DNA of 64,000 nucleotides, taken from Fructobacillus durionis (GTDB lineage: Bacteria; Bacillota; Bacilli; Lactobacillales; Lactobacillaceae). Location: positions 310,001-374,000 of the forward strand of contig NZ_FOLI01000001.1 of assembly GCF_900112405.1 (NCBI RefSeq). Reading direction: 5' to 3'. The notes under the pieces were generated by a model. That model had not been told where the DNA came from and searched no databases. It saw only the letters and a program-made list of their open reading frames with translations. Within the stretch, counting starts at the first letter, position 1. Every line of letters begins with the position of its first letter. Below are positions 9,762 through 46,057 of this stretch, one piece after another. Both the position numbers and the translations under genes were made by a program.

Positions 9762-9845
9762 TTGTTAGCGCAGCTACAACCACACAGTGCAGGTATAAGA
9801 AAGTTCATTGAACCGCCTCGTACTGGTGAGTCTAAGTATAAAAGG
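9762..9845 (+). ncRNA. ribosomal protein L21 leader
   Basis: The 5' untranslated segment between the promoter and rplU starts with CAGTTGTTAGCGCAGCTACAAC and contains short complementary blocks and a CAGTGCAGG core, resembling the firmicute L21 leader through which the ribosomal protein is thought to control its own operon. Assigned from position and the conserved-looking 5' block; not folded computationally. Confidence 0.65.
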
Positions 9846-21747: not shown

Positions 21748-21996
21748 ATGGCAAAGACAGACGAAGAACAAGCAGCTAAGTACCATGTAGGGGATGTCTT
21801 GTTGGCACCCGCTTATGGTAACTTGGAAAAGCCTTTCACTGGAAAAGTCGAGAAGGTTTACGACAACGCTTTGCTTGTCGAAATCATCGAAAACGATCCA
21901 GCTGATCAACCAGCTGTTAACGAAATGAATCACCGTGGTGTGGTGAGAATGGCCGACGTTGAAGTCATTCAAGAAGCACCAGCTGAGAAAGAATAG
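21748..21996 (+). CDS. DUF2187 family small protein
   Basis: An 82-residue acidic protein. The core KPFTGKVEKVYDNALLVEI followed by HRGVVRMADVEVI matches my recollection of the DUF2187 family, a small beta-rich KOW/SH3-like domain found across lactobacilli. Function unknown. It has its own extended -10 promoter and lies just before the argS T-box leader, so part of its transcript could read into that leader. GGAG ribosome site present. Confidence 0.7.
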   Translation: MAKTDEEQAAKYHVGDVLLAPAYGNLEKPFTGKVEKVYDNALLVEIIENDPADQPAVNEMNHRGVVRMADVEVIQEAPAEKE

Positions 21997-22192
21997 AAAA
22001 AGAAGAAGGCAGGATTGTAAGAATCCAGTGACTCTGGCGCTAGTGTGAGCCAGAGCTTACCCCTGACCCGCGCCGCTTTTTCTTTTGTACAAGTGAATCA
22101 AACAAAAGTGGTTGGCCTAGCTGACTATTAGAGTGGTACCGCGGGCAGGGCTCGTCTCTTCAGATAATATGTAGAGATGGGTCCTGCTTTTG
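21995..22192 (+). promoter_or_regulatory. T-box riboswitch controlling argS
   Basis: Stem I base formed by the purine-rich AAAAAGAAGAAGGC and GCCGCTTTTTCTTTT, with an inner CTCTGGC/GCCAGAG hairpin. The T-box sequence AGAGTGGTACCGCGGGC is at 22130-22146; TGGT in its bulge pairs with an ACCA tRNA end, i.e. discriminator A. The terminator pairs GCAGG...TCTCT with AGAGA...CCTGC and ends in T4. Uncharged tRNA-Arg should stabilise the antiterminator. I could not fix the specifier codon with certainty. Confidence 0.9.
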
Positions 22193-36235: not shown

Positions 36236-36395
36236 TTAGAATGGACTTTTTAATTTTAATAAATTTCCTTAAAATACTACTAAGAGTGATTTTAATTTTC
36301 AATTAAAATTAGCCAGGTAGGGCAATCCATGCTATTATTTTAAGAGAATGTATTTATAAAAGTAGCAATTTATTAAAATGAGACAAGGTACCAAT

Positions 36396-37895
36396 ATGAC
36401 AAATCATCTATATAAAAACGGAAAGGCTTGGCTGACCCTGGCCTTTGCAGCCACTGGTTTTGCTTTTGCAAACCACAACCAGGCATCTGCTGATACTCAA
36501 GATGCGAATGCCTCAGCGGTTACATCTGATCAATCAGCGCAGCAAGCACAACAAACGCAACAGGTACAGTCTGAAACAACCACGGCTAACACGCAGCAGG
36601 TGGCTTCTGCACGTGATAACGCGCTAGCAAAGTATGCCAATCAACACGTGTCTGGCTATATTTATTCTCCTGATGTTTCAGGAGCAAATGGTGGCTACAA
36701 CTGGTTTGAAGACGGTCACTTGTTTACTGGTTTCCGTAAGTATATGGGCACTTACTACTGGTTTGTTGACGGTGTTCGTCAAAATGCTGGCTGGCGTCAA
36801 GCTTGGGGTATGAACTATTACACTGATAACGATGGTCGTGCCGTTCAAGGACACCAAAACATTGGTGGACAGGACTTTGACTTCGGAAACGATGGTTCAT
36901 ACTATCTTCGTTCATCCGGTTACCTTCACGATGGTTCGAGCCAAAACGGAGGCTACCGCTGGTATGAAAACGGAAAGCTTTACACTGGTTTCCGTTACTA
37001 CGCGGGTACTTTTTACTGGTTCGTTGATGGTGTTCGTCAGAACGCCGGTTGGCGTCAAGCATGGGGTTTGAATTACTATACTGATGATAACGGACGTGCT
37101 GTTCAAGGTCGTCACATCATTGATGGTAAGCTCTATGACTTTGGAGATGATGGTTCTTTCTACAACCGTCCATTGAACGGTTATTTCTGGGATGGTTCAC
37201 CTAAGAACGGTGGTTACCGCTGGTACGATAACGGAAACCTTTATACTGGATTCCGTTACTATATGGGAACTTATTACTGGTTCGTCGATGGTGTTCGTCA
37301 GAACGCTGGCTGGCGTCAAGCTTGGGGCATGACATACTATACTGATGATAATGGACGTGCCGTTCAAGGATCACAGTACATTGATGGTCAATGGTACTTC
37401 TTTGGTGATGATGGTACTTACTACCGTCGTTTCGCAGCTAGTGATGTTGTGAACTGGTTCTACCGTAACTATGGTAAAATCACCTATTCAATGTACGGCT
37501 CACGTACTGGTGCTGATGGAACTGCCGATTGTTCCGGTGCTATGACTGAAGCCTTGATGGAAGCCGGTGCTTCAAAGCCAGCCTTCATCTACAACACGGA
37601 TTCCATTCATGATTACCTTCGTAATAACGGTTACCACTTGGTTGCCGAAAATACGAAGACTCAAAAGCAAGTTGGCGACATCGTGATTTGGGGCCGTCGT
37701 GGTGAATCTGGTGGTGCTAATGGCCACATCATGATCATCAACAAGGATGATGATGCCAACGGAAACGGTGCCCGTGAAATTTCAGTTGATTACTGGACAA
37801 ACGGTGGTTACAATTCCGCTATTTCAGAGCATGATTACAACTATTATGCTGCTGTTGATGGCCACCCATACTTCTATGTTTACCGTCATAATTAA
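36396..37895 (+). CDS. secreted peptidoglycan amidohydrolase with KxYKxGKxW signal and wall-binding repeats
   Basis: A 499-residue exported protein: YKNGKAW at the start (KxYKxGKxW-type signal peptide), a Gln/Thr/Ala-rich linker, three ~85-residue aromatic repeats (GYRWYENGKLYTGFRYY, FYWFVDGVRQNAGWRQAWG, YYTDDNGRAVQG) like those of Leuconostoc glucansucrases and wall hydrolases, and a C-terminal Amidase_5/NlpC-type domain with GTADCSGAMTEALMEAG (catalytic Cys) and GHIMIINKDDD (His). It should bind the wall or glucan and cut peptidoglycan. The ATG at 36396 has AAGG upstream; an ATG six codons earlier does not. Confidence 0.88.
   Translation: MTNHLYKNGKAWLTLAFAATGFAFANHNQASADTQDANASAVTSDQSAQQAQQTQQVQSETTTANTQQVASARDNALAKYANQHVSGYIYSPDVSGANGGYNWFEDGHLFTGFRKYMGTYYWFVDGVRQNAGWRQAWGMNYYTDNDGRAVQGHQNIGGQDFDFGNDGSYYLRSSGYLHDGSSQNGGYRWYENGKLYTGFRYYAGTFYWFVDGVRQNAGWRQAWGLNYYTDDNGRAVQGRHIIDGKLYDFGDDGSFYNRPLNGYFWDGSPKNGGYRWYDNGNLYTGFRYYMGTYYWFVDGVRQNAGWRQAWGMTYYTDDNGRAVQGSQYIDGQWYFFGDDGTYYRRFAASDVVNWFYRNYGKITYSMYGSRTGADGTADCSGAMTEALMEAGASKPAFIYNTDSIHDYLRNNGYHLVAENTKTQKQVGDIVIWGRRGESGGANGHIMIINKDDDANGNGAREISVDYWTNGGYNSAISEHDYNYYAAVDGHPYFYVYRHN
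36650..37430 (+). repeat. three in-gene repeats encoding wall/glucan-binding modules
   Basis: Near-identical blocks of about 255 bases (starting near 36655, 36920 and 37178) inside the amidohydrolase gene. Each encodes FRYY-x-GT(Y/F)YWFVDGVRQNAGWRQ. Recombination between them could change repeat number. Confidence 0.85.
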
Positions 37896-37901
37896 AAAAG
37901 T

Positions 37902-37932
37902 AGAATCTTTGCTTCGCAAAGGTTCTTTTTTT
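37902..37932 (+). terminator. intrinsic terminator
   Basis: AGAA-t-CTTTG / CAAAG-g-TTCT followed by T6. Confidence 0.85.
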
Positions 37933-37933
37933 C

Positions 37934-37962
37934 TTGCCTTTTTCAAATTAAAATAGCATAAT
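37934..37962 (+). promoter_or_regulatory. promoter of the glycine T-box operon
   Basis: TTGCCT (37934-37939), 17-base spacer, CATAAT (37957-37962). Confidence 0.55.
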
Positions 37963-37968
37963 ATGTGT

Positions 37969-38130
37969 AAGCAATTCTCTTGTAATGACCCGGCGTGGAA
38001 CCCGGCTAGCATGAGAACTCAACGAAAGTGTCAGAGCATTTTCTGCTCTGGAAATCAGGTGGAACCGCGCGCGAGCGTCCTGATGTCAAAGAAATTTTGG
38101 CATTAGAACGTTGGCGCGTTTTTTTGTCTA
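37969..38130 (+). promoter_or_regulatory. compact glycine-type T-box riboswitch
   Basis: T-box AGGTGGAACCGCG at 38057-38069; TGGA in its bulge pairs with a TCCA tRNA end (discriminator U, as in tRNA-Gly). A CAGAGCA/TGCTCTG stem III precedes it. Stem I is only about 45 bases (TTCTC/GAGAA base), with a GGC triplet near 38004 as possible glycine specifier. The terminator pairs 38067-38087 with 38107-38127 over about 19 pairs and ends in T7. It precedes a DUF2130 gene, glyQ and glyS. Confidence 0.88.
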
Positions 38131-38144
38131 AAAAAGGAGGGGCG

Positions 38145-39554
38145 ATGGCAAAACTAAAGTACAGTGTGCAATCCGAAACTGTTTTAGAACTGCAGGAAGC
38201 CGGTCAGGTTGGCGACATCATCGACCTGAAGGATAAGCAAGAGGTCGATACCGAAACGCTTGCGAAAGCCGTTCAAGAAGGGATTGAGCAGCGTATCCAA
38301 AGAGAAAAGTCGGACTGGGAAAAGAGTCAGTCTGCCATTCTGAAATCTAAGCTGGCGGAAGAGCAGCAGGCTGCGAATCTGACGCTCGAAAAGGCTAAGC
38401 AGGAAGTGGCGGAGGCTGCTCGTGAAAAGCAGGAAAAGCTGCAAGCCGAACTAGCGGATTTGAAGGCTTCCCTGAAGAGTCAACAAGCTGGTGAAAGCTC
38501 GGCCAAGGAGCTGGCATTAGCGAAGCAGCGGGAAGAGTTAGGCAAAGCTCAGGCGGCTGAAAAAGACCAACTGCAACAAGCCTTGCAGGATGTCCAGAAG
38601 CAACTTCAAGACGAGCTTTCCAAGCAGAAGGAATCGGCTGGACAGGAAAAGCTGAAGCTGGAAAAGCAACTGATGGAGCTTGAGAACAAGGTGCAGAACC
38701 AGGAGCGGGATAAGGAACTGGCCCTTGTTCAGACCAAGGCTGACTATGAAGCCCAGTTAAAGGCCGCTCAGGACCAGGTTGAGTTCTACAAGGACTTCAA
38801 GGCCCGTCAGTCGACCAAGGAAATTGGGGAGTCCTTGGAAGTATACGCTCACCAGGAGTTCAATAAGATTCGGCCCTACGCCTTTCCAAACGCTTATTTT
38901 GAAAAGGATAACGAGGTTTCCAAGGAAACCGGGTCGAAGGGGGACTTCATCTTCCGTGACTACGATGATGGCATCGAGTTCATCTCCATCATGTTTGACA
39001 TGAAGAACGAGGCTGATTCGACCGAGAAGAAGCATAAGAACGCGGATTTCTTCATGGAATTGGATAAGGATCGCCGGGAAAAGGGAACGGAATATGCCGT
39101 GCTGGTTTCTCTCCTGGAATCTGATAACGAGTACTACAACACTGGGATCGTACAGGTTCCTGACTATCCTAAGATGTATGTGATTCGCCCCCAGTTCTTT
39201 GTCCACTTCATTGGCCTGCTGCGGAATGCGGCACTGGATTCTGTTCAGTACAAAAAGCAGTTGGCGGAAGCCAAAGAGCAAAACATCGATATTACCAACT
39301 TTGAGGATAATATCAACACTTTCAAGGACAAGTTTGCGAAGAACTACGAGTCTTACTCGAAGAACTTCCAGGCGGCCATTGATGAGATTGATAAGGCCAT
39401 TAAGCGGATGGAAGAGGTCAAGCGCAAGTTGACCACTTCCGAAAACCAGTTGCGCCTGGCCAACAACAAGTTAGACGACGTTTCCGTTAAAAAGTTGACC
39501 CGTGGTAATCCAACCATGAAGGCCAAGTTCGACGAATTGAAAAAAGAAGATTAA
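38145..39554 (+). CDS. DUF2130 coiled-coil protein with PD-(D/E)xK-like domain, first gene of the glycine T-box operon
   Basis: A 469-residue protein. Residues ~50-215 are a long Gln/Lys/Glu-rich coiled coil; the C-terminal half is DUF2130, with [10 protein letters not shown] and SIMFDMKNE spaced like a PD-(D/E)xK nuclease active site (Asp, then D-x-K). Function unknown. The ATG at 38145 has AAAGGAGG; the open frame further upstream lies over the T-box and is not coding. Only 16 bases separate it from glyQ, with no terminator between, so it should be induced with glycyl-tRNA synthetase when tRNA-Gly is uncharged. Confidence 0.82.
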
Positions 39555-39570
39555 TTTAATCGAGGAAATT

Positions 39571-40518
39571 ATGACAGATAAGAAACTTTCACTACAGGAT
39601 ATCATCCTGACTTTGCAAGAGTTCTGGGCTGCTAAGGGGGCTAACCTCATGCAGGCTTATGACAACGAAGTCGGTGCCGGAACACAAAGTCCATACACCT
39701 TCTTGCGTGCCAACGGCCCTGAACCATGGGCTGCGGCCTACGTGCAACCATCACGTCGTCCTGCCGATGGACGTTACGGTGATAACCCTAACCGACTCTT
39801 CCAGCACCACCAGTTCCAGGTGGTGATGAAGCCTTCTCCTGACAACATTCAGGAATTGTACCTGGCCTCATTGGAAGCCTTGGGTATCAACCCACTCGAA
39901 CACGATATCCGTTTCGTGGAAGATAACTGGGAAAACCCATCAATGGGTGCTGCCGGTATCGGTTGGGAAGTTTGGCTCGATGGAATGGAAGTAACTCAGT
40001 TCACTTACTTCCAACAGGTTGGTGGAATCGAAGTTGATTCCGTTACTTCTGAAATCACTTATGGTTTGGAACGTTTGGCTTCTTACATCCAAGACGTGCC
40101 AACAGTTTATGATTTGGAATGGGGTCACGGTGTTCTCTACGGTGACATCTTCAAGGAACCTGAATACGAGCACTCAAAGTACGCCTTTGAAGAATCAAAC
40201 CAGGAAATGCTTCTTCGCCACTTCGACGACTACGAAGCCGAAGCCAAGCACAACTTGGAATTGGGATTGGTTCACCCAGCCTATGACTACATCTTGAAGT
40301 CATCACACACCTTTAACCTATTGGATGCCCGTGGAACGGTTTCAGTTACGGAACGTGCCGGTTACTTGCACCGTATCCGTTCAATGGCCCGTCAGGTTTC
40401 CAAAGTCTTCATCGAGGAACGTGCTAAGTTAGGCTTCCCATTGTTGAAGGACGAAGCACTACGCGAAAAGTACCTGGGTGAAAAGGGAAAGTACGCTAAG
40501 AAGGAGGACCAAGACTAA
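39571..40518 (+). CDS. glyQ: glycyl-tRNA synthetase alpha subunit
   Basis: A 315-residue class II catalytic subunit of the alpha2beta2 enzyme: [33 protein letters not shown] at the start, [19 protein letters not shown] (motif 2) and [20 protein letters not shown] (motif 3). It activates glycine. Overlaps glyS by one base and is the second gene of the T-box operon. GAGG ribosome site. Confidence 0.98.
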
Positions 40519-42575
40519 TGGCCGATTATATTTTAGAAATTGGATTGGAAGAAATGCCAGCGCATTTGGTAACTTCTTCTGAAAAGCAACTGGTAAAGCG
40601 CGTCAAGGACTTCTTAGACGCACATCGCTTGGCTGTACAAGAAATCAAGCCTTTCTCAACACCCCGTCGTTTGGCCGTTGAATTGTCAGGCTTGGCCGAA
40701 GGATCTGAAGCCATCTCCGAAGTGAAGCGTGGACCAGCCGTGGACCGTGCCAAGGATGACGAAGGAAACTGGTCCCGTGCCGCCCAAGGGTTCGCCCGCG
40801 GACAGGGAACTACTCCTGAAGAATTGACTGAAAAGGACGGTTACCTCTGGGCCAACAAGGAAATCGCCGGTGTGCCTGCCAAGGACATCTTGGCTAAGAT
40901 TGGTGATGAAGTTGTGGAGCAAATGACTTTTACAACTTACATGAAGTGGGGCAACCACTCCTTCCACTACATCCGTCCAATCCGCTGGTTGGTTTCATTG
41001 TTGGACGAAGAAGTGGTGCCATTCTCAGTATTGGACGTGCAAGCCGGTCAGACCACTCGTGGCCACCGTTTCTTGTCTACTGATAACGTAATCATTGCAT
41101 CAGCACAGGCCTACGAAAAGACATTGAACGACGCCTTCGTTATGGTTGATGCTAAGACTCGTAAGGACACGATTGTTGCCCAACTCGAGCAAATCGCCAA
41201 GGACAACAAGTGGAACCTGGACTTGCAGTCAGACATGGCTAAGGACCTCTTGGAAGAAGTGAACAACATCGTCGAATGGCCAACGGCCTTCAGCGGTCAG
41301 TTCGACGAGAAGTACCTGGAATTGCCTAAGGAAGTCTTGATCACTTCCATGCGTGACCACCAACGTTTCTTCTTCGTAACGAACGAAGCCGGCGACCTCT
41401 TGCCACACTTCCTTTCTGTTCGTAACGGAAACGCTGAAGACATCGAAAACGTTGCCCGTGGTAACGAAAAAGTCCTTGTCGCCCGCTTGGAAGACGCGGC
41501 CTTCTTCTACAAGGAAGACCAGCAAAAGTCCATCGCTGACTACATGGAACGTGTTAAGAAGCTTGTCTTCCACGAAAAGATTGGAACGGTTTACGAGCAC
41601 ATGCAGCGTGTGCAAGGTTTGTCTGCCCAATTGGCCCAAGCTTTGGGACTCTCTGATGAAGAACAAGACGATCTCAACCGTGCCGCTCAAATCTACAAGT
41701 TTGATTTGATGACTGGTATGGTCGGTGAATTCGACGAACTCCAAGGTGTCATGGGTGAGCACTACGCCAAGCTCTTTGGTGAAAAGGATGCCGTTGCCAA
41801 GGCCATCTACGAACATTACTTGCCAACCTCTGCCGAAGGCGAAGTTGCCCAAACTAAGGTTGGTGCCGTTTTGGCCATCGCCGACAAGTTGGATTCTATC
41901 GTTACCTTCTTTGCCCACGACATGATGCCATCTGGTGCTAACGACCCTTACGGTCTCCGTCGTGCCGCAACCGGTGTTGTCCGCACATTGGAAGCCTTCG
42001 ACTGGCACTTTAACCTCTTGGACATCCTCCTTGCCTTCGAACAGAAGAACGGGGAAGTGGCCGATGCCAACTTGGACGACGTCTTGGCCTTCATGACCGA
42101 CCGTGTCCGCAAGCAGGCTCTCGACGCTGGTATCCGTAAGGATATCGTGACGGCTGGTACTGCCAACGTTGTTACTGGTGACTTCGTGTATGTTGCTGAC
42201 CGTACGAAGGTTTTGGCTAACCACGCCAAGGACGATAACTTCCGTGACGTCATGGAAGCCTTGGCCCGTGTTTCACGCCTTGCCAAGAAGATGACGGTTG
42301 ATGCGCCAGTTGACCCAGCGCTTCTCGTTAACGACCAAGAGAAGGCCCTTTACGAAGCAACCAAGGATCTTTCATTGGCTGATCTCGAGGCGAAGGGTGC
42401 CGAAGCACTTTACCAAGCCTTGGTTGCCTTGCAGGCGCCAATCGCGGCATACTTCGACAACACGATGGTTAACGATGACGACGAAGCCATCAAGAAGAAC
42501 CGTTACGCTCAATTGAATGCCATCAAGACGCTCATTGACGGCCTTGGTAACACAGAAGATATCGTTATCAAGTAA
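40518..42575 (+). CDS. glyS: glycyl-tRNA synthetase beta subunit
   Basis: A 685-residue tRNA-binding subunit, with the N-terminal LLEIGLEEMPA-like YILEIGLEEMPAHLV, an HD-like central region and a C-terminal anticodon-binding domain. Starts at the last base of glyQ (TAATG), after AAGGAGG within glyQ, so the subunits are made together. Codon use shifts to more C-ending codons than in surrounding genes, but the frame and length are normal. Confidence 0.97.
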   Translation: MADYILEIGLEEMPAHLVTSSEKQLVKRVKDFLDAHRLAVQEIKPFSTPRRLAVELSGLAEGSEAISEVKRGPAVDRAKDDEGNWSRAAQGFARGQGTTPEELTEKDGYLWANKEIAGVPAKDILAKIGDEVVEQMTFTTYMKWGNHSFHYIRPIRWLVSLLDEEVVPFSVLDVQAGQTTRGHRFLSTDNVIIASAQAYEKTLNDAFVMVDAKTRKDTIVAQLEQIAKDNKWNLDLQSDMAKDLLEEVNNIVEWPTAFSGQFDEKYLELPKEVLITSMRDHQRFFFVTNEAGDLLPHFLSVRNGNAEDIENVARGNEKVLVARLEDAAFFYKEDQQKSIADYMERVKKLVFHEKIGTVYEHMQRVQGLSAQLAQALGLSDEEQDDLNRAAQIYKFDLMTGMVGEFDELQGVMGEHYAKLFGEKDAVAKAIYEHYLPTSAEGEVAQTKVGAVLAIADKLDSIVTFFAHDMMPSGANDPYGLRRAATGVVRTLEAFDWHFNLLDILLAFEQKNGEVADANLDDVLAFMTDRVRKQALDAGIRKDIVTAGTANVVTGDFVYVADRTKVLANHAKDDNFRDVMEALARVSRLAKKMTVDAPVDPALLVNDQEKALYEATKDLSLADLEAKGAEALYQALVALQAPIAAYFDNTMVNDDDEAIKKNRYAQLNAIKTLIDGLGNTEDIVIK

Positions 42576-42728: not shown

Positions 42729-43007
42729 CTATAGATATTGATCGATTTCAGTGATTAGATCTGGAAAATCAATCTGTAAGGCAATGGATATTTTCTTAAG
42801 AGTAAAAATTGATGGCAAGTTGTAGCCTAGTTCAATATTAGATAATGATTTTTCACTTATCCAGTCTTCAGGTAAAAGACCGTCTTCAATTGGCTCGGAA
42901 ATAAAAACTTCACGAGAATATCCCAATACTTTTCGGTGTTGCCTGATTATATTACCTATTTCTTTGTTTTCTAACTGTTCTTTTCTTTTTACCACAATAG
43001 TAACCAT
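42729..43007 (-). CDS. XRE-family helix-turn-helix regulator
   Basis: A 92-residue protein with a Cro/CI-type helix-turn-helix: IGNIIRQHRKVLGYSREVF, an unusually long loop, then WISEKSLSNIELGYNLPSIFTLKKISIAL, the recognition and following helices. It is divergent from the AIPR gene with about 65 bases between the starts, which contain TA-rich palindromic sequence, so it probably represses that gene and itself. AT-rich, like the following genes of the islet. AAAGGA ribosome site. Confidence 0.75.
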   Translation of the reverse strand: MVTIVVKRKEQLENKEIGNIIRQHRKVLGYSREVFISEPIEDGLLPEDWISEKSLSNIELGYNLPSIFTLKKISIALQIDFPDLITEIDQYL

Positions 43008-43071
43008 GGTTCCTTTTATTATTATCTGTAATACATTATATTATACATATTGAATGAAAGAGGAGAAAACG

Positions 43072-44244
43072 ATGATTGAAAAATTTCCAGTAAAAAGTAT
43101 ACGAACGACAAAGTCGCCTTCAACTGAAGGTGTTACAACATACACCATGTTGGTTGATTTTAATGATTTGCCAAATGACATTTCACTAGAAGTAAACCCA
43201 CGTAAGCCAAAGATGAACACGGCTGTTGCTAAAAAATTGATTCATGCAGTTACGGGGACAGAAGAAGATTTTGATATTAAGAACCGTGGAATTGTAATTA
43301 TTGCTAATAATCTGATTTTTAACAACGGTCAAGTTACTTTGGATTTGGGTGATGATCGTACTCGATTCGGTATTTTGGATGGTGGTCATACTTACACGGC
43401 TATTACGCAAAACCGAGGGGATATGCCTGAGGATATGCACAAATATGTAAAGTTGGAAATTTTGGTTGGCGAAAACCTTGATGCAACTGGGCTAGCTGAT
43501 GCTCGTAATACGAGTGTTCAGGTTAGTGATATCGCGTTATTTGAATTAGATGATAAATTTAATGACGTTAAGGATGTCCTGAAAAAAGAAAGCTATGCTG
43601 ATGATGTGGCTTATAAGGATAATGATAATAAGAGTATTCCTGTCGCAGATCTATTGCGATTGATGTACGCGATGAATATCGAGAAATTTGCAAGTGAAAC
43701 AACAGCTCCTGTTTCTGCCTATTCATCAAAAGCAGCTGTTTTCCGTGACTACAAAAAGGAAATTGATAAGGGTGACGATAATGTCTATGCAAAATTAATT
43801 CCATTGTTACCTGAATTGGTTCGAATCTTTGAATTCATTCAACGTGATATGAAGAAGTACTATGCTGAATTTAAGAAAGCAAATGGACAGAGTTCATCTG
43901 CTTTTGGAAAAGTTCGCGGTGTTGAAGGAGCAGGAAATTATCACACAGCTTTTTCAAAGATGGATATTGAGTATCAAATTTCAAATGGATTTATTTTCCC
44001 AATCTTCGGTGCATTCCGTGCGCTTTTGAAAGAAAATAACGATGGAACTATCGAATTCGAATTTTCACCCGAAAAGGTCTGGAATAAAGTAGGTGTGAAC
44101 TTAGTTCAGAATACTTTTGAAACAGATACAAACCCTCAAATGGCTGGAAAGAATAAAACGTTGTGGCAGGGAAACTATCGAATTGTTGAAGGTGCTAAAA
44201 AAGATTTGTTAATTGAAAAATTGATGAATCAAAACGGTTTGTAA
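43072..44244 (+). CDS. AIPR-family (abortive infection phage resistance-like) protein
   Basis: A 390-residue protein. The central segments NRGIVIIANN and RFGILDGGHTYTAI match the conserved core of the AIPR (Abi-like) family, and LADARNTSVQVSDIAL follows in the expected position. AIPR proteins were first found in plasmid phage-resistance systems; mechanism unknown. The start at 43072 is preferred for AGGAG 6 bases upstream. It has its own terminator, and a small XRE regulator gene faces away from it. Assignment from motif resemblance only. Confidence 0.7.
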   Translation: MIEKFPVKSIRTTKSPSTEGVTTYTMLVDFNDLPNDISLEVNPRKPKMNTAVAKKLIHAVTGTEEDFDIKNRGIVIIANNLIFNNGQVTLDLGDDRTRFGILDGGHTYTAITQNRGDMPEDMHKYVKLEILVGENLDATGLADARNTSVQVSDIALFELDDKFNDVKDVLKKESYADDVAYKDNDNKSIPVADLLRLMYAMNIEKFASETTAPVSAYSSKAAVFRDYKKEIDKGDDNVYAKLIPLLPELVRIFEFIQRDMKKYYAEFKKANGQSSSAFGKVRGVEGAGNYHTAFSKMDIEYQISNGFIFPIFGAFRALLKENNDGTIEFEFSPEKVWNKVGVNLVQNTFETDTNPQMAGKNKTLWQGNYRIVEGAKKDLLIEKLMNQNGL

Positions 44245-44255
44245 GATATTGGTTT

Positions 44256-44287
44256 AAAGGTCGACACTTTGTGTCGGCTTTTTTTAT
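44256..44287 (+). terminator. intrinsic terminator of the AIPR gene
   Basis: AAGG-t-CGACA-ctttg-TGTCG-g-CTTTTTTT. Confidence 0.85.
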
Positions 44288-44387
44288 TCCTATCCTTCAT
44301 AACCGCTGCTTCATGACCGTGCTAGATTAAGAAATAAAAGCAAAGATTTATTTCTTGTCTTCGTATTACTACATGAAGGAGGTCAAT

Positions 44388-44951
44388 ATGGATAACACGA
44401 AAACGATTGCCGTGGTGAGTTTAGCAAAAATTGTTCGAAAGGATGTCTTTTGCTTGGAAGACAATCGCGCGCTGTTTGATAAGTTGGAGGGGATGGGCGT
44501 CGAGCTGTTAGGCTTCTTTGATAAGAAGATGTCAGCTTTACTGAAGTGGGATAGTCATTATCATCATCCGGTTATTGCGGTAAATAACCGGGATTCGGAG
44601 AAGAAACAAATCTTTTCATTGGCCCATGAGATTGGCCACTTATTCATCGATTATGGTTGGCTGCCAGAACCTTATAAGAACCCAGACGACTTTAACAATC
44701 TTGATGGCGTACTGAATGTGACTCATTACCGTCGGGTGAAGAGCCATCAAAACGGTAGGGATTCGAAACGTGAAGTGCTAATGGACGACTTTGCCAGGAA
44801 CTTTCTGATGCCCTATGAAGAGGTGAAACAGCTATTGGTTGATAATGGCTTTAACGTGGAGACAACGATTGACCAGCTGGTGGAAAGATACTATGTAACT
44901 GAACTGACTGCGCGTCGGCAGTTAGGTTTTGTAAGAAATCGAGGTGATTGA
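44388..44951 (+). CDS. ImmA/IrrE-family metallopeptidase
   Basis: A 187-residue M78 peptidase with SLAHEIGHLFIDY (zinc-binding HEIGH) at ~82-94 and a distal LMDDFARNFLMP glutamate/aspartate helix region typical of the family. In mobile elements ImmA cleaves a partner XRE repressor (ImmR); the XRE gene at 42729 is a possible partner across the AIPR gene. The ATG at 44388 follows AAGGAGG; an in-frame ATG 11 codons earlier lacks a ribosome site. Overlap-like spacing with the next gene indicates one unit. Confidence 0.88.
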   Translation: MDNTKTIAVVSLAKIVRKDVFCLEDNRALFDKLEGMGVELLGFFDKKMSALLKWDSHYHHPVIAVNNRDSEKKQIFSLAHEIGHLFIDYGWLPEPYKNPDDFNNLDGVLNVTHYRRVKSHQNGRDSKREVLMDDFARNFLMPYEEVKQLLVDNGFNVETTIDQLVERYYVTELTARRQLGFVRNRGD

Positions 44952-44954
44952 GTG

Positions 44955-45428
44955 ATGGATTTCACTGACCCAGTTTTTAGGAAACACCTGGAAGCTTTGG
45001 TTAATGATTTGCGCGGATTTGATAAATCTGAGACTAGTAGTCCTCAAGATGATGATTCCAATAAGGTGAGTTTTCATACACTGCGTAACCAGCAGAGTAT
45101 CTCTTTTCGGGAACAAATCATCCTGGCGATTAGCGAAGATATTAAGAGTAAGGCGGCCATTCGAAAACGTTTTTCGACTTTTTATATCTGGTTCTTAACC
45201 TTAGTCACGACACTTGTTTTTTATGTCATCTTAGATCCGATTAACATGCTGTCGAGTGGAGCGAGCTTTTACTCGGATACGTTAAAGATATCGTTGGTGG
45301 GTACCTTCTTTGCCACACTATTGTCTGCCTTTATGGCGATGGTGAAATACGGTTTTACGGCGGAGAAACAGATGATTGAACTGTTTGATTTGATTGGAAA
45401 TGAGAGTGAGGGTGGAAGTGATGAGTGA
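44955..45428 (+). CDS. membrane protein of unknown function linked to the ImmA-like peptidase
   Basis: A 157-residue protein with a charged N-terminal ~75 residues and two membrane helices (~76-98 and ~112-135) joined by a short loop, then a short acidic tail. No family recognised. It starts three bases after the peptidase stop, with GAGGTGA as ribosome site, so the two are co-translated; it may be the effector or substrate of the peptidase, which is inference. Confidence 0.65.
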   Translation: MDFTDPVFRKHLEALVNDLRGFDKSETSSPQDDDSNKVSFHTLRNQQSISFREQIILAISEDIKSKAAIRKRFSTFYIWFLTLVTTLVFYVILDPINMLSSGASFYSDTLKISLVGTFFATLLSAFMAMVKYGFTAEKQMIELFDLIGNESEGGSDE

Positions 45429-45480
45429 CCCTCGTACGCAATAAAGTAATTGTGTTTTGTATTTGAAAGGAGAAATGAAA

Positions 45481-45726
45481 ATGACTGTTCATACATATAG
45501 GCAAGGCAACGAAATAGTGATTACAATTCCAGCCGAATTTAAAGTAGAGGCAAATAAAGATTATCAGCCAACAATTTTACCGGATGGAACCATCAAGTTT
45601 ATTCCAGAGGATAGTCCTTTCCCGGACATATGGAATGATGATCCGAAGGATATTGCCGCATTTAACCAAGAAATTGGTTCACTTGATGATGGTGCGAATT
45701 ATGGTCGAGAAAACGTTGAGTATTAA
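45481..45726 (+). CDS. MazE-like antitoxin
   Basis: An 81-residue protein. The N-terminal YRQGNEIVITIPAEFKVEANKDYQPTI resembles the AbrB/MazE swapped-hairpin DNA-binding fold, and the acidic C-terminus (SPFPDIWNDDPKDIAAFNQEI) would wrap the toxin. The ATG at 45481 sits 9 bases after AAAGGAG. Its end overlaps the start of the MazF-like gene by 26 bases, the usual coupled arrangement. Confidence 0.78.
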   Translation: MTVHTYRQGNEIVITIPAEFKVEANKDYQPTILPDGTIKFIPEDSPFPDIWNDDPKDIAAFNQEIGSLDDGANYGRENVEY

Positions 45727-46057
45727 GCCTGGCAGTGTGTATTGGATTGACGTGGAGCCACACTCTGGTCGAGAACAAGGTGGACACTTAGTATCAGAAA
45801 ATAATATTCGGCGTCCGGTCGTTGTTGTATCGAATGAGAGATATAACGAACACAATATGGCACTTGTCTTTGCATGTACATCAACTAATAAGAAAAATCG
45901 ATATTTATTACCCATTATGCTAAAAAAGCCATCTAATATTATTCTTAGTCAGATTTTGGGCTACGACATGGTGTCAAGAAATGCCCAGTATATGGGTTTT
46001 GATGTTGGCCAAGAGACATTGAGCTATCTAAGAAATATTGTTATGCAATATATATAA
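45701..46057 (+). CDS. MazF/PemK-like mRNA endonuclease toxin
   Basis: A 118-residue PemK-fold protein: GSVYWIDVEPHSGREQGGHL (the loop and Glu region at the dimer groove), RRPVVVVSNERYN (core Arg), and ACTSTNKK (catalytic Ser/Thr position). MazF toxins cut single-stranded mRNA at short sequences. The start is inside the antitoxin gene, out of frame; the open frame further upstream is a shadow. AT-rich like the rest of the islet. Confidence 0.82.
   Translation: MVEKTLSIKPGSVYWIDVEPHSGREQGGHLVSENNIRRPVVVVSNERYNEHNMALVFACTSTNKKNRYLLPIMLKKPSNIILSQILGYDMVSRNAQYMGFDVGQETLSYLRNIVMQYI

Follow-up and report, generated by a model that had tools for sequence, protein, structure and literature searches.

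In Fructobacillus durionis, a gene encoding a DUF2130 protein and the glycyl-tRNA synthetase genes glyQ and glyS lie one after the other behind a T-box leader of very small size. We consider it likely that this leader controls the three genes as a glycine T-box that has a minimal aptamer and acts by transcription attenuation, DUF2130 being likely a passenger. The locus is found on the + strand of a 64,000-nt stretch of the genome, hereafter called the window, whose positions are used throughout. The hairpin formed by P1, a kink-turn-like loop and P2, the specifier in its apical loop, the lack of a Stem II, the alternative antiterminator and terminator and the conservation of the element in six genera have been read from the sequence, and from them we infer the tRNA-dependent steps. 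The original prediction had placed DUF2130 first in a glycine T-box operon, followed by glyQ-glyS, and Pfam matches and coordinates bear this out. It had not described that Stem I is ultrashort, that Stem II is absent and that the specifier is GGA, versus GGC in 22 of the 24 leaders compared here.

The leader is a true T-box with a minimal Stem I

The leader is a true T-box. Its antiterminator contains a UGGN bulge able to pair with a tRNA NCCA end, and the specifier codon, GGA (GGC in relatives), fits the synthetase genes glyQS that follow. Two tRNA-Gly genes were found in the genome, GCC and UCC, both of them with U73 and without an encoded CCA according to our own reading of their sequences. 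Since both tRNAs are present with U73, the GGA specifier and the UGGA motif each have a partner, and the predicted pairing of TGGA with tRNA-Gly is possible for the U73-CCA of both genes. The sequence UGGAACCGCG in the antiterminator is identical in all 24 leaders; both antiterminator strands are present in every one of them, and each carries a terminator hairpin with a folding energy between -17.5 and -35.2 kcal/mol and a run of 5-8 U. The 5′ arm of the terminator contains the 3′ strand of the antiterminator and, since the Shine-Dalgarno sequence of the window is located 3′ of the terminator, the platform is transcriptional.

The Rfam T-box model (RF00230) gives this leader 36.3 bits, below the gathering score of 93, and ranks it next to last among the 19 T-box matches of its own genome (E up to 1). 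This cut-off alone is not telling, because 13 of these 19 matches also score below 93, and the low score is explained by the long Stem I that the model expects. A default Rfam scan overlooked this leader, which is a warning for such scans.

Stem I comprises about 43 nt, i.e., a base helix (P1), a kink-turn-like internal loop, a short second helix (P2) and an apical loop of 6-8 nt that contains the specifier. Stem II and Stem IIA/B are absent, and a short linker alone separates Stem I from Stem III. Fructobacillus, Convivina, Leuconostoc and three other genera contributed the 24 leaders (23 distinct) of the alignment, which is gap-free over Stem I. In the internal loop a GA on the 5′ side lies opposite a GA on the 3′ side, and comparison with the known consensus assigns this arrangement to the kink-turn pattern. 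The GA is found in 22 of the 24 leaders, and UA replaces the GA of the 3′ side in the window leader and in that of locus L034. The apical specifier is GGC followed by a purine in 22 of the 24, whereas the window and L034 have GGA-A. These are also the two that have UA for GA (window 37997-38008 and L034), a co-occurrence that suggests linked changes or decay.

Covariation argues for this hairpin. Each of the 15 base pairs in P1 and P2 covaries among the 23 distinct leaders: 80.6% of the cells are paired versus 53.6% in shuffled alignments, double-change cells number 111 versus 38.7, and the covariation score is 0.760 versus 0.261, slid versions reaching at most 0.239. None of 500 shuffles matched the paired share, the double-change count or the covariation score. 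The four core pairs of P2, analyzed separately, are paired in 94.6% of the cells (61.2% in shuffles) and have a covariation score of 0.909 (0.280 in shuffles, at most 0.210 when slid, 0/500 shuffles). Folding of single sequences yields P1 with at least 4 of its 9 pairs in 22 of the 24 leaders.

A hidden long Stem I was also considered. It was ruled out in 22 of the 24 leaders by a NATAAT hexamer upstream of P1: from its end to the end of the 5′ strand of P1 there are 17-25 nt, which leaves no room for such a stem. The upstream gene's terminator in the window (37902-37926 and its U-run) leaves no space either, and an Rfam alignment that starts at 37892 is not believed, as it crosses that terminator.

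Several observations weigh against the proposed Stem I. The measures based on pair counts and pair types do not go beyond the shuffles, which equal them in 52 and 73 of 500 cases for P1 and P2 together and in 351 and 343 of 500 for the P2 core. When Stem I is folded singly, the P2 register (at least three of four core pairs) is obtained in 14 of the 24 leaders, several Fructobacillus leaders favour another hairpin register, and the best fold of the window has two extra pairs within the loop that leave GGA as a triloop. P2 keeps two of its four core pairs in both leaders of one genus of our sample (g29), one P2 pair is absent in L036, and a clear -10 box (NATAAT) was not found in the two g29 leaders among the 24. 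The window leader, moreover, departs twice from its family (GGA for GGC and UA for GA), which may reflect a weakening. Our confidence in the preferred explanation is slightly lowered because P2 folds in 14 leaders only and two leaders have no clear -10.

The leader fits none of the four described T-box classes

A 2023 publication (PMC10482949) distinguishes at least four T-box classes. Class I has a long Stem I with an interdigitated double T-loop motif (IDTM) and a Stem II; class II, specific for glycine, has a long Stem I with an IDTM and a linker instead of Stem II; class III has a short Stem I with the specifier in an apical penta- or hexanucleotide loop, requires Stem II and is mostly translational; and class IV is intermediate. 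According to the same source, the binding of the tRNA is augmented by the IDTM of Stem I, which contacts the elbow, by the S-turn of Stem II, or by both.

The F. durionis leader shares with class II, i.e., the type of Bacillus subtilis glyQS, the glycine specificity, the absence of Stem II, the linker, Stem III, and the antiterminator and terminator in front of glyQS. However, its Stem I of about 43 nt carries an apical specifier, whereas that of class II is long, with an IDTM and the specifier in an internal loop. With class III, i.e., the type of Nocardia farcinica ileS, it shares a short Stem I without IDTM and a specifier in a small apical loop, of 6-8 nt in this case. Class III, in contrast, is represented by ileS, requires Stem II and is mostly translational, whereas the leaders described here are specific for glycine, have no Stem II and have a terminator with a U-run in 24 of 24 cases. 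Judged by its sequence, the leader is outside the four classes, because it has neither IDTM nor Stem II and yet has a terminator; it combines a Stem I of class III with the class II lack of Stem II and a terminator.

We lean towards regarding it as a fifth T-box class, which would be transcriptional and would read tRNA-Gly by means of the apical-loop codon and the acceptor-end bulge only, with no elbow contact or Stem II clamp. Such a class would be fixed in Leuconostoc, Fructobacillus, Convivina and three other genera (one perhaps Oenococcus), its specifier having changed to GGA in one Fructobacillus branch. The reduction may have been possible for glycine perhaps because the GGC-GCC pairing is strong, the reason that PMC10482949 gives for glycine T-boxes managing without Stem II. 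Some short glycine leaders may already be listed unnoticed in TBDB, because its model of translational T-boxes was used there on leaders whose Stem I is truncated (PMC7778990). Among the matches listed in our literature search, subscription papers being outside its scope, we recognised no publication that describes a short Stem I in a glycine T-box or deals with the leader of glyQS in Leuconostoc, Oenococcus or Fructobacillus.

Distribution of the short leader

A covariance model built from the 24 short leaders was searched in 397 Lactobacillaceae genomes and gave strong matches (67-109 bits) in 42 of them, the next match having 55 bits. These genomes belong to Fructobacillus (g1, 13 genomes), Leuconostoc (g16, 18), g29 (6), Convivina (g6, 2), g39 (2) and g7 (1). 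The names of g1, g6 and g16 were assigned through correspondence of their sites with named loci, whereas taking g29 to be Oenococcus is a guess; one g29 genome, 65% complete, yielded a weak match only. The 51 glyQ upstream regions, among them at least one from each of 39 other genera in the sample, were sorted by pattern, and a few by eye (L161 as short; L153, L163 and L182 as long), into 11 short, 36 long and 4 without detectable T-box core. The short kind is confined to six genera, and g18, like most other genera, has the long kind; this distribution suggests that the short leader arose by one reduction event.

A search of 398 genomes of the phylum (E 1e-9) returned the own genome as sole match, and that of 395 genomes of the order (E 1e-8) returned eight matches, six from this family and two (50 bits) from one other genus; as the model is clade-biased and these large searches were strictly filtered, distant parallels may be missed. 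Nine stretches with weaker matches (42-55 bits) were fetched in search of other specificities or places. Two of them contain a long T-box that belongs to glyQS, and two, read in part, have a different T-box core (GGTGGTACCACG); in the other five, a pattern search gave no match to the core pattern.

DUF2130 occupies a variable slot of the glycine operon

The features of the locus are collected in Table 1. DUF2130, glyQ and glyS most likely form a single operon, since 16 nt separate DUF2130 from glyQ and a simple consensus scan gave no promoter-like site on the + strand between 38145 and glyQ. A promoter at that place, carrying the expression of glyQS, had been named in the original prediction as a possible argument against it. 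The induction of DUF2130 together with glyQS that had been predicted is what would be expected of a gene located behind the T-box terminator with such a gap and no such internal site. The closest named relative is Fructobacillus sp. CRL 2054, whose DUF2130 protein is 95% identical.

Table 1. Features of the DUF2130-glyQ-glyS locus in the F. durionis window
Feature	Position	Strand	Basis or details
Promoter-like site TTGCCT-17-CATAAT	37934..37962	+	Consensus scan; immediately 5′ of the leader
Ultrashort Stem I	37975..38017	+	P1 37975-37983 with 38009-38017, one U-U mismatch
Kink-turn-like internal loop around P2	37984..38008	+	37984-37988 AAUGA; 38007-38008 UA
P2	37990-37993 with 38002-38005	+	Alignment; core also tested separately
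Specifier GGA in apical loop	37997..37999	+	Leader alignment
Stem III	38031..38051	+	Short linker to Stem I, no Stem II between
Antiterminator AUCAGG/CCUGAU with UGGAACC bulge	38054..38084	+	UGGA at 38060-38063
Intrinsic terminator	38065..38125	+	-30.0 kcal/mol, then 7 U
Shine-Dalgarno AAGGAGGGG	38134..38142	+	3′ of the terminator, read from sequence
DUF2130 protein gene	38145..39554	+	ATG start, 469 aa, Pfam DUF2130 E 2.3e-80
glyQ	39571..40518	+	GlyQ profile E 9.2e-139
glyS	40518..42575	+	GlyS profile E 6e-196

Fructobacillus (13 genomes), Convivina (2) and g39 (2) show the order T-box, DUF2130, glyQ in all 17 of their genomes examined, with gaps of 7-67 nt between DUF2130 and the nearest ATG of glyQ in the 12 cases measured; the genomes of L013 and L018 also have the T-box before DUF2130 (L226 and L222). 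A survey of DUF2130 that covered the best 80 of 90 named loci found glyQ beside it in 14, all of them from Fructobacillus, Convivina and two further bacteria of the same family. The remaining 66 loci, 11 of them from Leuconostoc, where DUF2130 is kept elsewhere, had no glyQ within the flanks examined and no match to the short glycine T-box model, which may miss other T-boxes, and genomes with a single-chain glycyl-tRNA synthetase cannot show glyQ at all. The original prediction had proposed a neighbourhood survey as a check; the linkage recurs within three genera and was not found in these 66 of 80 loci.

Downstream genes were examined at 30 of the 42 strong model matches, and DUF2130 is next after the T-box in 17 of them. 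The other 13 loci are from Leuconostoc (12) and g7 (1); glyQ lies within 200 nt of the T-box core in eight, one of these having a partial match to a 129-aa protein in between, and 616 nt away in one. In 4 of the 12 Leuconostoc loci the slot holds, before glyQ, a weakly SatD-like gene (17.8 bits, cut-off 29) and a gene for this 129-aa protein, and both may also be induced by glycine starvation. The slot genes of Leuconostoc are those of L157, L159 and L160 and of L217, L223, L224 and L225, which come partly from the same genomes. Unrelated genes seem to have entered the slot on at least two occasions, and it was perhaps emptied again; such repeated filling speaks for permissive hitch-hiking.

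The linkage of DUF2130 to glyQ looks like one inherited arrangement, and hitch-hiking is a likelier reason than function for the position of DUF2130 in the glycine operon. A stray gene in first position has precedents, as PMC2494555 already lists hypothetical genes under glycine T-boxes in Enterococcus and Streptococcus. It has to be said against hitch-hiking that a gene order retained in 17 genomes could also mean selection for co-expression.

A peptidoglycan hydrolase of the Amidase_5 family with glucan-binding-type repeats is encoded just 5′ of the T-box (36378-37895), and such a gene is found at the same place in 3 of the 14 glyQ-linked named loci (L034, L035 and L045).

The DUF2130 protein has a predicted nuclease-type core

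The protein matches the full PF09903 (DUF2130) domain with 270 bits, versus a curated cut-off of 26.7. The nuclease-like pattern GDFIFRD...FDMK noticed in the original prediction is real: residues K265, G266, D267, F284, M286, K287, N288 and E289 are invariant in 39 aligned sequences, and residue 285 is D or E in the 13 rows listed. We saw no difference from the family at the protein level; only the place of the gene is unusual.

The predicted structure consists of a long helix (residues 36-221), taken as a coiled coil, an alpha/beta core and a second long helix. The model of the whole protein has a mean predicted local distance difference test (pLDDT) value of 75.7 and a predicted template modelling (pTM) score of 0.34, and the core modelled separately (about residues 226-369) has values of 80.3 and 0.76, respectively. 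The top chain in Foldseek is BstEII (E 2.5e-3), with none below 0.001. VIA-align of the whole model gave Can2 with a Z of 9.3 (root-mean-square deviation 3.1, 122 aligned residues) and further nucleases of the PD-(D/E)XK fold with Z 8-9, and that of the core alone gave TIP26 (9.4), Can2 (9.3) and McrC (9.1); by the caution given with the tool itself, a Z near 8 may mean no more than a widely shared arrangement, and activity does not follow from a fold. In the predicted models, the core shares with the PD-(D/E)XK nucleases (Can2/Cdn1, McrC, Bax1 and BstEII) the order helix-strand-strand-strand-helix-strand and the D and (D/E)xK residues, but differs from them in being flanked by long coiled coils on both sides. 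By sequence, no relative of the core was found among solved structures below E 0.5. The models support that DUF2130 is a coiled-coil protein with a core of the PD-(D/E)XK nuclease type, and its own job, to judge solely by this fold, probably concerns nucleic acid.

NCBIfam offered no usable name for DUF2130, and PADLOC gave no match to it at E 0.01. In the neighbourhoods of 55 DUF2130 loci (551 open reading frames) no neighbour family is present in more than eight loci; a family found in three loci resembles type I restriction, as judged solely by eye.

Proposed mechanism and alternatives

In the mechanism that we propose, the anticodon of tRNA-Gly would be offered GGA, or GGC in most relatives, by the apical loop during transcription. 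The UCCA end of an uncharged tRNA-Gly would pair with UGGA, the antiterminator would hold, and the polymerase would enter DUF2130, glyQ and glyS, whereas with charged tRNA-Gly the terminator would form. The tRNA would thus be recognised through a single codon-anticodon duplex and its acceptor end, with neither elbow contact nor a Stem II clamp. DUF2130 would have joined as first gene of the operon probably once, in an ancestor shared by Fructobacillus, Convivina and a third genus, and it would most likely be co-induced as a passenger.

Two alternatives concern the leader itself. It could be a class II (long glycine) T-box in decay whose regulatory function has been lost, as the GGA specifier and the altered kink-turn of the window, the Rfam score far under the threshold and the failure of P2 to be the best single-sequence fold in 10 of the 24 leaders would suggest. 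However, the short hairpin shows covariation across 24 leaders and persists in 42 genomes from six genera, and the antiterminator strands and the terminator are present in 24 of 24, so that decay appears very improbable to us. We give hardly any credit to the idea that translation is what the leader controls, as it is in those ileS T-boxes of actinobacteria that also have a short Stem I. Although the same short Stem I and apical-loop specifier are ascribed to class III (PMC10482949), all 24 terminators have U-runs, the Shine-Dalgarno of the window lies 3′ of its terminator, and the Stem II said to be required in that class is absent.

A further alternative concerns DUF2130, whose control by the T-box could be purposeful, the protein acting as a nuclease or coiled-coil factor required once tRNA-Gly is uncharged, in starvation, quality control or a tRNA-linked defence, as the original prediction had suggested. 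Its first position in 17 of 17 genomes of three genera, with the short gaps of 7-67 nt (12 measured), and the PD-(D/E)XK-type core, in which D267 and K287 are invariant and position 285 is D or E (13 rows listed), are in line with this idea. Nevertheless, the linkage was not found in 66 of 80 DUF2130 loci (those with a single-chain synthetase could not show it), 11 Leuconostoc loci have DUF2130 elsewhere, and there is no PADLOC match. Related genera, moreover, have the same T-box directly before glyQS or before other slot genes, and the linkage looks like a single inherited arrangement. The suggested role is thus not supported, and we consider purposeful control unlikely, a passenger DUF2130 under a minimal glycine T-box being the explanation that we prefer.

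Other features of the window

The region 3′ of glyS (42729-46057) may be a small defence cluster. It encodes a small helix-turn-helix protein on the - strand and an AIPR-family protein (PF10592, E 2.3e-35). Also found there are an M78/IrrE-like peptidase that matches capP in PADLOC (E 2.8e-14), a further small protein whose family is unclear, and two small genes that resemble, by eye, a toxin-antitoxin pair. A second T-box match (21989-22162; 47.3 bits, below the gathering score) precedes an open reading frame at about 22212 that presumably encodes an arginyl-tRNA synthetase, and a ribosomal protein L21 leader (52.3 bits) is located at 9768-9843.

Implications

The operon provides a physiological condition, the shortage of glycyl-tRNA, under which the function of DUF2130 can be sought. 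The leader is the better find; it poses a well-supported challenge, simple to approach by experiment, to the stated requirements of transcriptional T-boxes. It would make the binding-speed argument directly testable, and it could serve as a compact part for synthetic control. If our interpretation is true, a natural terminator-type T-box with neither elbow contact nor Stem II would show to what size a workable tRNA sensor can be reduced.
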